From Candidatus Latescibacterota bacterium (GTDB lineage Bacteria; JAAXHH01): DNA of 64,000 bases. The translations under genes were made by a program, and so were the position numbers. The notes under the pieces are model-generated. The model saw only the letters and a program-made list of their open reading frames with translations, did no database searches and was not told the DNA's origin. The stretch covers positions 1,561,045 to 1,625,044 of the forward strand of contig JAJEAN010000007.1 of the NCBI GenBank assembly GCA_022822725.1. The letters are read 5' to 3'. Below, piece by piece: positions 21,979-43,035 of this stretch (the first letter of the stretch is position 1; the number at the start of each line of letters is the position of its first letter).

Positions 21979-22007
21979 AATTTATCCACCGGCCCATCGC
22001 CTGTCAA
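21979..22007 (-). promoter_or_regulatory. sigma70-type promoter for purSLQ
   Basis: Minus strand: TTGACA (22007-22002), 17-bp spacer, TAAATT (21984-21979). It lies back-to-back with the sigma-factor promoter at 22025. Confidence 0.75.
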
Positions 22008-22024
22008 TCCTAAAGGGAAAACAC

Positions 22025-22053
22025 TTGACTTGACGGGCTTTTCGGTGTAATTT
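22025..22053 (+). promoter_or_regulatory. sigma70-type promoter for sigma-factor gene
   Basis: TTGACT (22025-22030), 17-bp spacer, TAATTT (22048-22053). It predicts a transcript start near 22060 and a leader of about 340 nt. Confidence 0.65.
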
Positions 22054-22060
22054 ATTCACA

Positions 22061-22402
22061 CTGGGACCGTTTGTCCGGGCTATGCCTTGCCGATGGTCCG
22101 TGCATGTTTGGATTGCGGTCGTATTAGGCGGCGATCCTTCCCGGTTTCCACTGATACAGCAACGAAGCAGTTTCGATTTCGAACGCGCACCCGCCGGTAA
22201 GTCCTTTCCGTCTGTCTGACGATGGCGTCTTTGCCGCTCGCTTATTCCGGACCGTATTGACAGGACCCTGTATGGCACGCATCGTTCAGCATACCGTTCA
22301 ATCCACAATCGCAATCGGGGTAACGGGAAACGGGCCCGCATAGGCCGGAGCGGACGGGATACCTTGGCATTGCGCATGACGCGAGGGGGGAGGTGAAGCA
22401 AG
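22061..22402 (+). other. long 5' leader of sigma-factor gene
   Basis: About 340 nt between the predicted transcript start and the sigma-factor Shine-Dalgarno. I see no convincing ORF here. GC-rich self-complementary stretches occur near 22318-22362 (GGGCCCGC...GGCCGGAGCGGACGGG), so a folded regulatory leader is possible, but I recognise no known riboswitch. It ends in an unusually strong Shine-Dalgarno, GGAGGTGA, at 22389-22396. Confidence 0.4.
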
Positions 22403-23278
22403 ATCGGCTCATCATACCAGGAATCCTATGGAAACGGGGCCAGGTACGAACAGGCGCTGTACCGCTATCTGGCCGAAATGTCCAAGTATCCCTTGATCAC
22501 GGCCGAGGAAGAAGTTCGGCTGGCCCGGCTGATCAAGCAGGGTGACCAGAATGCGCTGGACAAGCTGGTGAAGGCCAATCTCAGGTTCGTCGTCAGCGTG
22601 GCCCGTCAATACCAGAACTACGGCCTGCCCCTGCTGGACATGATCAACGAGGGCAACATGGGCCTCATGCGGGCCGCCAAGAAATTTGACGAAACCAGGG
22701 GGTACAAGTTCATCTCCTATGCCGTCTGGTGGATACGCCAGGCCATCATACAGTCTATCGCCAACCAGTCGAGGACCGTTCGCGTCCCCGTCAACCGCTC
22801 CGAAGAACTTCGCCGCATCAAACAGACCTCCAAGCACTTGCAGCACGAACTCGGTCGCAAGCCCGATGTCGATGAAATCGCCGAGGAAATGGATATTTCG
22901 GTCGAAGAGATCAACGAAGCCCTCAGTTCGTTCAGCCACTGCATTTCCCTGGACGTGCCCTTCAATCACGACGACGACCGCAGTTTGCTCGACCTCCTGC
23001 CCGACGAAATGCAGACGGCGCCGGACGAAAGCACCATGCTGCAGTTTCTGAAGTCGGACGTCGGAAAGGTGCTGGACACCCTGCCGGCCCGCGAGGCGGA
23101 AGTGATCCGCCTGTACTTCGGCGTGGGTTCGGAAAGGGCCCACACGCTTGAGGAGATCGGCATCCGTTTCGGCCTGACGCGGGAACGGATCCGCCAGATC
23201 AAGGAACGAGCGCTGCAGCGTCTGCGTCATGCGACCCGCAGCGGCAAGCTCAGCCCCTACCTCCGGGATGACGACTGA
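22403..23278 (+). CDS. rpoD: RNA polymerase sigma factor, RpoD/SigA family (probable AUC start)
   Basis: A sigma70 of group 1/2 size (291 residues from 22403; 266 from the first ATG at 22478). Region 2 (LRFVVSVARQYQNYGLPLLDMINEGNMGLMRAAKKFD), the -10 recognition helix (YAVWWIRQAIIQSI), region 3 and region 4.2 (TLEEIGIRFGLTRERIRQIKERALQRLR) are complete. Region 1.2 (YEQALYRYLAEMSKYPLITAEEE) begins upstream of the ATG at 22478, so that ATG is too late. The frame is closed by a TGA at 22394, and between it and 22478 there is no ATG, GTG or TTG. GGAGGTGA ends six bases before an in-frame ATC at 22403, the likely start. Its own promoter is at 22025 and a terminator follows. Confidence 0.9.
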   Translation: MGSSYQESYGNGARYEQALYRYLAEMSKYPLITAEEEVRLARLIKQGDQNALDKLVKANLRFVVSVARQYQNYGLPLLDMINEGNMGLMRAAKKFDETRGYKFISYAVWWIRQAIIQSIANQSRTVRVPVNRSEELRRIKQTSKHLQHELGRKPDVDEIAEEMDISVEEINEALSSFSHCISLDVPFNHDDDRSLLDLLPDEMQTAPDESTMLQFLKSDVGKVLDTLPAREAEVIRLYFGVGSERAHTLEEIGIRFGLTRERIRQIKERALQRLRHATRSGKLSPYLRDDD

Positions 23279-23312: not shown

Positions 23313-23348
23313 AACCCCGGCGCGCACGCCAGCCCGCCGGGGTTTTTT
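23313..23348 (+). terminator. rho-independent terminator after sigma-factor gene
   Basis: AACCCCGGCG (23313-23322) pairs with CGCCGGGGTT (from 23335), followed by a T run to 23348: a 10-bp GC-rich stem with a T tail. Confidence 0.9.
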
Positions 23349-23567: not shown

Positions 23568-26500
23568 ATGCTCACCCCGATCAAGAACCTGATCGCCAGC
23601 GCTTTCGGGACCAAGCACGACCGGGACGTCAAGCGGATGGAACCGCTCGTCGATGCCGTCAATGAATGGGCCGATGAATACCGGACGCTCGACGAAGCGC
23701 AGTTCCCCGAGAAAACGCGGGAGTTCAGGGCCCGGTGGGAAGACGGCGAGGAACTGGACGACATCCTTCCCGAAGCATTCGGCCTGGTCAAGGAAGCCTG
23801 CAGACGCATGATCGGCAGGTCGTGGTTCGTCCCCGGCCAGGGCGACATGGTGTGGGACATGACGCCCTACGACGTGCAGATCATCGGCGGGATCGTGCTC
23901 CACGAAGGCAAGATCGCCGAGATGGCAACGGGAGAGGGCAAGACGCTCGTGGCCCTTTTCCCCATGTATCTCAACGGGCTGACCGGACGCGGCGCCCACC
24001 TGGTGACGCACAACGAGTTCCTCGCCACGCGCGACCGGGCCTGGATGGGACCGGTCTTCGAGTTCCTCGGGCTCACGGTCGAGTGCCTGCAGAACAACGA
24101 TCCCGACATGGAGCGGAAGAAAGCCGGCTATCAGGCGGACGTGACCTACGGGACCACCAACGAATTCGGCTTCGACTACCTCCGGGACAACATGAAATGG
24201 CGCCTGGAGGACCGCGTGCAGCGAGGGCACCCTTACGCCATCGTGGATGAGGTGGATTCCATCCTGATCGACGAAGCCCGCACGCCCCTCATCATCGCGG
24301 GCCAGGTGAGCGAGTCGAACAGCGGCAAATACGCCGAATCCCTGCCGGACGTACAGAAACTCATTCGCGCCCAGACCCGCTTCGTGGCGAAGATCATCGC
24401 CGATGCGGAAGCCCTGCTGGACAATGAAGAAGACGACTACGACGCCGGGACCAAGCTGCTGCAGGCTCAGCGGGGCATGCCGAAGAACAAGAAGCTCCTG
24501 AAACTGCAGCAGGAACCCGGCATCAAGAAGCTGATCCAGCAGGTGGAGGGGGACTACATCCGGGAGAAGAAGATGCCCGTACTGGACGACGAGCTCTTCT
24601 TCACCGTCGATGAGAAAACCCGCCATACCGAAATCAACGAGAAGGGCCGGGAACTCCTTTCACCGGGCGAGCAGGAACTCTTCATCATACCCGATCTCGG
24701 CGAGGGCATGGTGGAAATCGACTCCGATACGGAACTTTCCGAGCAGCAGAAGGACGAGCGGAGGGCCGAACTGGAGAAACTGTACGCCGAACGCAGCGAG
24801 CGCATCCACAACATGCACCAGCTGCTCCAGGCCTACGCGATCTACGAGAAGGACATCGATTACGTCATCGAGAACGGTAAGGTCGTCCTGGTCGACACCT
24901 TTACGGGCCGGCTGATGTACGGCAGGCGGCTCGCGGAAGGCCTGCACCAGGCCATAGAGGCCAAGGAAGGCGTGAAAATCGAGCAGGAAACGCGCACCGT
25001 CGCCTCCATCACCATACAGAATTACTTCCGCATGTACGATAAGCTGGCGGGGATGACCGGTACGGCCGTAACGGAAGCGAGCGAGTTCTTCGCGATCTAC
25101 AAGATGGACGTGGTGGAAATCCCGACCAACCAGCCCGTCCGCCGGATGGACTACGACGACGTGGTCTTCCGGACCCGGCGGGAGAAATACAACTCGGTCC
25201 TCGACGAAATCGAAGAGATAAACGGGCGCAGCCGGCCCATCCTGATCGGGACCACCTCCGTCGACGCCTCGGAAACGCTGAGCCGCATGCTGAAGCGGCG
25301 GGGCATCAAGCACAACGTGCTGAACGCCAAGTTCCACGAGCAGGAAGCCGAGATCATCGCGAAGGCCGGGCAGCCCGGCTCGGTGACCATCGCCACCAAC
25401 ATGGCCGGACGCGGCACCGACATCAAATTGGGCGCGGGCGTGGTGAAATGCGACCGCTGCCACCTGCAGAACGGCGAACCGCTCAACACGCCCACGGCCG
25501 AAGGGCTGACCGTGCGTGACTGCATGGCGGACATGCCCTGCGGACTGCACATCATCGGGACCGAACGACACGAAGCCCGGCGTATCGACCGCCAGCTTCG
25601 CGGACGCTCCGGACGCCAGGGGGACCCGGGTTCATCGCGATTCTACCTCTCGCTCGAGGACGACCTGATGCGGCTCTTCGGCTCTGAGCGCATCGCCTCC
25701 GTCATGGACCGCCTGAAAATTCCGGACGGAGAGGTGATCGAGCACTCCATGGTGACCCGGTCCATCGAACGCGCCCAGAAACGCGTGGAAGCCCAGCATT
25801 TCGACATGCGGAAGCACGTGCTGGAATACGACAACGTCATGAACCAGCAGCGCGAAGCCGTGTACGACCGCCGCCTGCTCGCCCTGGAACGGAAGAACCT
25901 CAGGGAAGACGTCGTCGAGATGATCCGCGGCGTGGCGGAAAGGAAGGTGGCGGAATACACCGATCCCAAGACCTATCCCGAAGACTGGGACCTGGCCGGG
26001 CTGAGTAGCGACCTGGCCCGGAACTTCCACGTGGCCGTGACCGTGGCCGAAGAGGAAATGGCCGATCTGAACGTGGAATCACTGGTGGAACTGGCCAACG
26101 AGAAGATGCTCGAATCCTACGAGCGGAAGGAATCGACCCTGGCGCCTTCTCCGGAACTGATGCGCGACCTGGAGCGCTTCGCCACCCTGCACGTCATCGA
26201 CAACGCCTGGCAGGAGCACCTGTCCGAGATCGACCGGATGCGGCAGGGCATCGGCCTGCGCGCGTACGGCCAGCTGGATCCCCTGATCCAGTACAAGAAG
26301 GAAGCCTACGCCATGTTCGAGGAGTTGTGGGACCGCCTTGACGAGGAGATCGTCAAGACCGTCTTCAGCGCCGAACTGGCCGAAACACGGATGCCGCGCC
26401 AGGAAACCCCGACCAACATGCGGGCGATACACCAGGAAGCCCCGGCCATGGCCGGCATGGCCGGTGTGGCCGCGGAAGATCCCGAAGCGGAAGCCGGCGT

Positions 26501-42522: not shown

Positions 42523-43035
42523 CTACCTGGGCATGAGGACCAGCGACATACTGCGGCCTTCCAGCCTGGGCCGCTGCTCGATGGTGCCCACGTCTTCCAG
42601 TATCTGCGCCATGTGCTCCAGTTTCCGCTGGCCCAGTTCCACGTGTGTCATTTCACGGCCCCAGAACCGCACGGACACCTTGACCTTGTTCCCGTGCTTC
42701 AGGAACTCACGGGCCTGCTGGGCCCGGTACTCCAGGTCGTGTTCGCTGATCTTGGGCGTCTTGAAGCGGATTTCCTTCAGTTGCGTCACGTGCTGCTTCT
42801 TGCGCGATTCCTTCACCCGCTTGCTCTGCTCGTATTTGTACTTGCCAAAGTCCATGATCTTGCAGACGGGCGGGCGGGCATCGGGCGACACTTCCACGAG
42901 GTCCAGGTCGGCGCCGGACGCGAGCTGCAGGGCGTCCCTGGTCTCCATGATGCCGACCTGCTCGCCTTCCGCGCTGATCACCCGTACCTGGGGCACGCGT
43001 ATCATTCCGTTGACTCTGACGGTTCTCTTTTGAAT
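42523..43035 (-). CDS. infC: translation initiation factor IF-3 (AUU start)
   Basis: A 170-residue IF-3 when read from an ATT at 43035. The N-terminal phrase then becomes (M)QKRTVRVNGMIRVPQVRVI, matching the family RVNxxIRxPxVR, which is cut off if the first ATG (43005) is used. GGGAGG (43047-43042) lies six bases before the ATT. The N-domain (GIMETRDALQLA...), linker (RVKESRKKQ) and C-domain (IRFKTPKISEHDLEYR) are complete. The AUU start is the known basis for IF3 autoregulation. Confidence 0.96.
   Translation of the reverse strand: MQKRTVRVNGMIRVPQVRVISAEGEQVGIMETRDALQLASGADLDLVEVSPDARPPVCKIMDFGKYKYEQSKRVKESRKKQHVTQLKEIRFKTPKISEHDLEYRAQQAREFLKHGNKVKVSVRFWGREMTHVELGQRKLEHMAQILEDVGTIEQRPRLEGRSMSLVLMPR

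Follow-up and report, generated by a model that had tools for sequence, protein, structure and literature searches.

The stretch of DNA analysed here, referred to as the window, comprises 64,000 nucleotides (G000:C9:1561045-1625044) of a 3.8-Mb genome assembled in 9 contigs, and carries on its forward strand a gene (22403-23278) for a sigma-70 family factor of 291 aa in which regions 1.2, 2, 3 and 4 are recognised by Pfam. All four models (PF00140, PF04542, PF04539 and PF04545) score above cut-off with the regions in order, the protein is too short for region 1.1, and among solved structures its nearest chains are those of SigA, RpoD and RpoS; the factor is thus RpoD-like (groups 1/2). The divergent purS and a purL-like gene lie upstream, and secA, which begins at 23568 in the window, adjoins the sigma gene downstream in 16/16 genomes of the phylum, so that no anti-sigma gene is found directly beside it. 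In the window an intrinsic-terminator-like hairpin, CCCCGGCG ... CGCCGGGG TTTTTT (23315-23348, forward strand, recognised by eye), stands 3' of the gene, between it and secA.

Upstream of the gene a promoter-like block (22006-22075, forward strand) contains TTGACT at 22025-22030 and TGTAAT at 22046-22051 with a 15-base gap, the match to consensus being judged by eye. The block is well conserved, TTGAC being recognisable in 15/16 upstream sequences (all but that of L019), and as a putative promoter it would yield a leader of approximately 340 bases. A search of Rfam with this leader returned no match up to E = 1, and in a consensus fold of 12 leaders from the genus two-sided changes occurred at only a handful of 110 pairs, several of these pairs being broken in other sequences. 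A structured leader or riboswitch was consequently rejected, there being no Rfam match and no convincing paired changes. The leader region also includes a short open reading frame at 22272-22343 (MARIVQHTVQSTIAIGVTGNGPA), the length of which is kept, by eye, in five sequences of the genus while its sequence varies; its ATGGCACGCATCGTT is identical in 12 genus sequences, and the frame may encode a leader peptide or belong to an RNA element.

The reading frame of the sigma gene is closed upstream by a TGA at 22394-22396, which forms the last three bases of a Shine-Dalgarno (SD) sequence, GGAGGTGA (22389-22396, forward strand), complementary at 8/8 bases to the 3' end of the genome's own 16S rRNA. 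Following this TGA the frame reads AGC AAG ATC GGC TCA TCA TAC CAG ..., which places an in-frame ATC (22403-22405, forward strand), presumably read as fMet, six bases from the SD. The earliest in-frame ATG, GTG or TTG is the ATG at 22478-22480 (forward strand), codon 26, which is situated within region 1.2, lacks an SD and is an unlikely start. Since the Pfam Sigma70_r1_2 match corresponds to residues 22-49 of the protein translated from 22403, region 1.2 begins upstream of this ATG. The earlier note had derived the same arrangement from the letters: its coordinates are exact, the SD complementing the 16S 3' end and the in-frame ATC six bases beyond it are as it described, and its two further points, that no ATG, GTG or TTG precedes 22478 and that region 1.2 starts ahead of the first ATG, were borne out by the sequence and the Pfam match, respectively. 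The N-terminal peptide predicted for a start at AUC 22403 is (M)GSSYQESYGNGAR.

An altered anti-SD or initiator tRNA was considered as an explanation for the unusual codon and rejected. The 16S 3' end of the genome (...GGATCACCTCCTTTCT / TCACCTCC) is normal, and the initiator tRNA gene (L290), with its CAT anticodon and GGG/CCC anticodon stem, is ordinary among the 30/45 tRNA loci scanned; AUC is therefore truly mismatched, at the third base. Two CTG codons were likewise discarded as starts, that at 22457 because six of the 16 orthologues have CTC, CTA or TTG at this position, and that at 22469 because it lies inside region 1.2.

How exceptional such a start is within the genome was assessed in two ways. 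The pattern GGAGGTGA-N4-8-ATH occurs 20 times, at 19 sites, in the 3.8-Mb genome, as compared to 4 matches for the reversed control, and among matches followed by at least 40 open codons only 22403 begins, by eye, a recognisable gene that has no ordinary start; the only other long frame with no ordinary start close by (L295) was set aside as antisense to a 998-codon frame. A 400-kb screen against a congener retained 224 conserved ORFs, some of them spurious antisense frames, and flagged 21 for changes at third codon positions ahead of the earliest ordinary start common to both genomes. Only the sigma gene among these was judged by eye to possess a plausible SD-ATH start, the other 20 being spurious-looking, provided with an ordinary start or without an SD, which speaks against a general habit of AUH initiation; the screen is not exhaustive, as infC fell below its strict filter owing to too few changes. 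SDs of at least 8 bases were found at 7/216 conserved ORFs scored at ordinary starts. Outside the window, L228 (G000:C9 ~1500615-1501211), the product of which we take to resemble a DUF1697 protein, carries ATA at its apparent start, a position occupied by ATG in the congener G005.

Conservation of the start codon and alternative starts

The sample of this small phylum consisted of one genome from each of 16 species, the window genome included, distributed over five genera, and the sigma orthologues of the other 15 share 86-99% identity with the window gene. The codon aligned with 22403 is ATC in 15/16 and ATT in the remaining genome (G012, locus L016), and GGGAGG stands ahead of the start codon in 16/16, followed by TGA in 15/16 and by TGG in G003. 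The bases between SD and ATC are variable (AGC AAG, GGG AAG, CGC AAC, CGT AAA, CGG ACC, CAA GCG and others), and conservation of the protein sets in directly past the ATC (SYQESY ... RYEQ-LYRYLAEM). An alignment of orthologues had been suggested in the earlier note as a check on its reading, and the AUC (or AUU) together with the SD proved to be kept in every genome; close orthologues beginning with an ordinary codon in this position, named there as the contrary outcome, are absent from the 16 genomes, G012 coming nearest. In G012 one base fewer separates the ATT from the SD, and an ATG is located two codons past the ATT, 14 bases from GGAGG, such that both may serve as starts and initiation there may be partly ordinary; the start region of L016 possibly represents a step from a near-cognate toward an ordinary start. 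In a second species, G004, codon 19 is TTG, well within the conserved part.

The weight of the missing ATG was gauged from silent sites. Relative to G000, 60-77% of four-fold sites are changed in the three other genera included in the comparison, the fourth having been omitted because its sigma gene has an extra codon, and silent change between genera is therefore near saturation. Despite this, ATG is absent from the codon aligned with 22403 in all five genera; a neutral third base would, by our estimate, leave all five genera without G about one time in four, and the absence is weak by itself and at most a moderate argument for AUC. Similarly, 6/15 codons of the sigma gene that always specify Ile are also ATC throughout, and the preference for ATC over ATT is therefore not significant by itself.

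Taken with the elimination of other candidates, the conservation of codon and SD lends good support to the AUC initiation proposed in the earlier note. AUC is very likely the start codon of the sigma gene, and from the aligned sequences we hold with high confidence that translation initiates at 22403. The internal ATG at 22478 is the first ordinary start in frame, and 16/16 genomes conserve the Glu-Met of region 1.2 to which it belongs, so that a shorter protein with dispensable similarity upstream might be envisaged; such a start would, however, lack an SD, cut into region 1.2 and leave the conserved SD purposeless. The codons from the ATC onward are, moreover, conserved as protein, and the 15 codons ahead of the ATG differ between G000 and G005 by three third-base and zero first- or second-base changes, all of which makes initiation at 22478 very improbable. 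Even less is to be said for a start further upstream, whether reached by a frameshift in the leader or through a GTG or TTG. The frames of G003 (where TGG replaces TGA) and G012 are indeed open upstream and contain GTG or TTG codons, but their upstream codons are dissimilar by eye, and in the other 14/16 genomes the TGA of the SD closes the frame. That the ATC reflects a sequencing error or a decayed gene is scarcely credible, as 16/16 species agree, identity between genera is 86-92% and none of the 16 copies contains an internal stop; an error at 22403 in particular is refuted by the orthologues.

Ordinary starts prevail among related sigma genes. An outgroup of 84 sigma loci, 4 obtained by genome search and the remainder being the best 80 of at least 592 named records, was drawn from Calditrichota, Gemmatimonadota, Latescibacterota, Bacteroidota and other phyla, and in 82/82 readable loci (L022 and L083 were unreadable) an ATG, GTG or TTG occurs 8-30 codons ahead of region 1.2, albeit that where the upstream frame is long and open the actual start may lie at another codon. 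In the phylum itself, RpoD-like paralogues of the L002 type start with GTG at 13/14 loci and ATG at 1/14 (G009 and G011 not included). The ATC is therefore a property of the 22403 sigma gene in this phylum. In the titles and abstracts of the open-access literature no sigma gene starting with AUC or AUU appeared among the matches listed, sigR of Streptomyces with its GTC being the sole non-AUG sigma case among them.

Identity of the sigma factor

The genome encodes four sigma-70 genes of this type, that is, three paralogues beside the 22403 gene. Compared with the 80 outgroup proteins (the best 80 of at least 592), L002 shows a median identity of 65% and 366 bits, as against 54% and 300 bits for the 22403 sigma, so that the GTG-initiated L002 and not the 22403 gene is the paralogue nearest to RpoD proteins outside the phylum. 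Against the NCBIfam RpoD models the 22403 sigma reached 306 bits (cut-off 555) and 269 bits (cut-off 354), and the RpoD-like L002 also remained below both cut-offs. In a tree built from 51 of 124 rows, one further row having been skipped for length, the eight rows with AUC or AUU starts fell into one clade with full support and a long stem; we are unsure of the neighbours of this clade because of the long branches.

Between genera the 22403 sigma retains 86-92% identity, L002 69-77% and SecA 71-82%. The gene is thus present in 16/16 genomes and is the slowest-changing of the genes compared, and its better conservation than that of SecA or L002 suggests a possible role as a major sigma factor. 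One episode of divergence after a duplication, followed by stasis, would fit either a second essential sigma factor or a takeover of the role of principal sigma. Within the phylum L002 evolves more rapidly than the AUC-start sigma, even though it is the paralogue most similar to RpoD proteins of other phyla (L001 and L002 being paralogues in G000).

infC, proposed IF3 discrimination and known systems

The earlier note had drawn a parallel with infC, the gene for IF3, and its AUU start in the window is real: an ATT stands at 43033-43035 on the minus strand (read 43035-43033), with GGGAGG in front, and the IF3_N match covers the protein translated from it from residue 8 on, seven residues after the start. 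The ATT is found at the expected start in 14/14 readable phylum loci of 16, L216 and L217, both at contig ends, being unreadable at the 5' end. In three other genera (G012, G013 and G015; L209, L212 and L221) infC has the layout of the sigma gene, GGAGGTGA-N6-ATT, and the sites examined in the window's genus carry GGGAGGA or similar; in G014 (L207) an ATC stands two codons ahead of the ATT, nearer the SD. Across the phylum infC keeps ATT, and the sigma gene has mostly ATC.

IF3 destabilises initiation complexes on codons except AUG, GUG and UUG, and the autocontrol of infC exploits this discrimination. The sigma gene carries the marks of the class of genes discriminated against by IF3: it is without a usable ATG, GTG or TTG, has a near-cognate codon at SD distance and is preceded by a strong SD whose perfect 8-base match would offset the codon, G012 being a partial exception. 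In the mechanism we propose, the unusually strong SD would guide the start of translation at AUC 22403, where the ordinary CAU initiator tRNA would pair at the first two bases only, so that IF3 would be expected to reject most initiation complexes, a fraction of which would be rescued by the long SD. The output of sigma factor would then be low, would climb under weak IF3 proofreading or IF3 shortage, and would move in parallel with that of infC, which has its AUU in a similar setting. We consider this explanation as a whole, that of a sigma-70 factor translated from an AUC that IF3 rejects, rescued by its SD and paralleling infC, to be probable. That sigma output is sensitive to the level of IF3 we take to be likely, on the basis of the known biochemistry of IF3 and of the precedent of sigR.

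Whether the cell makes use of such sensitivity as regulation, beyond keeping the sigma level low, is a separate question, on which we lean neither strongly for nor against, an affirmative answer being only tentatively held. The AUC of the sigma gene, like the AUU of infC, implies that sigma supply may be tied to start-codon proofreading, and the note's reading of the gene as regulated by IF3 is accordingly a fair and plausible hypothesis that is partly supported. A link to transcription capacity, also suggested in the note, would be more tentative, given the three further sigma-70 paralogues of this type, of which the one nearest to outside RpoDs starts with GTG. It is also quite conceivable, if somewhat doubtful, that the AUC acts as a fixed brake by which the sigma factor is kept scarce, with IF3 never varying sufficiently to act as a signal. 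In Staphylococcus such starts cut output to about 10% and the AUU site of cvfC1 in S. aureus is without response to the medium (PMC13009471), from which it follows that near-cognate starts need not be regulated; likewise, no rise of sigR translation was seen under oxidative stress (PMC5472188). A fixed brake is, however, less easily reconciled with the retention of the same type of start by infC in this phylum, because of which the level of IF3 is itself probably under feedback control, nor does an anti-sigma gene adjoin the sigma gene. A bolder form of the proposed IF3 dependence, in which the best-conserved and possibly (co-)principal sigma factor is subject to IF3 discrimination and infC and the sigma gene constitute one initiation-fidelity regulon, appears unlikely to us. 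If this were true, a deficit of free IF3 with respect to ribosomes would increase both IF3 and transcription initiation, so that the two machineries would be coupled with no transcription factor involved.

The case offers a clean test of whether control by initiation fidelity reaches transcription factors, for which the matching infC sites of the phylum serve as an internal comparison, and it illustrates that near-cognate starts can be detected by comparative genomics. Automated annotation would probably clip the sigma protein at the internal ATG, thereby cutting region 1.2. In E. coli pcnB, which is not a sigma factor gene, starts with AUU, a codon that lowers the yield, and in Myxococcus dsg starts with AUC. 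Very few noncanonical starts have been characterised experimentally, and start prediction relies on ATG, GTG and TTG (PMC5472188). The start described here is a member of the known class discriminated by IF3, and what is new is the combination of an AUC, an RpoD-like sigma factor and conservation throughout the sampled phylum.

Similar sigma-70 proteins are the RpoD/SigA factors of Calditrichota, Gemmatimonadota and Bacteroidota, with up to 60% identity among the matches listed, but these have ordinary starts and are closer to L002 than to the 22403 sigma. The infC genes of E. coli, Streptomyces and S. aureus, which are described as starting with AUU, AUC or AUA (PMC5472188, PMC13009471), resemble the 22403 sigma in having AUH behind a strong SD; in infC the start effects autoregulation of IF3, and the sigma gene would follow the same signal. 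Conserved AUU and AUA starts with extended SDs in Staphylococcus yield about 10-30% of the output of AUG (PMC13009471). As described there, ccpN (AUA) and cvfC1 (AUU) of S. aureus share with the 22403 sigma an extended SD and conservation among relatives, and their non-AUG starts lower the yield, although neither encodes a sigma factor. The closest precedent is sigR of Streptomyces, which starts with GTC behind AGGAGGTG and is repressed by IF3 (PMC5472188). sigR and the gene described here have in common a near-cognate start of a sigma gene with a very long SD directly in front, the start of sigR being conserved across Streptomyces and the infC of its host being likewise non-AUG (ATC). The sigR system differs in its anti-sigma partner RsrA and in a second, longer isoform, whereas the 22403 sigma comprises the RpoD-like regions 1.2-4, starts with AUC or AUU in 16 genomes of the phylum and has no partner gene beside it; repression by IF3 has been demonstrated for sigR in the same report and would be predicted for the 22403 sigma.
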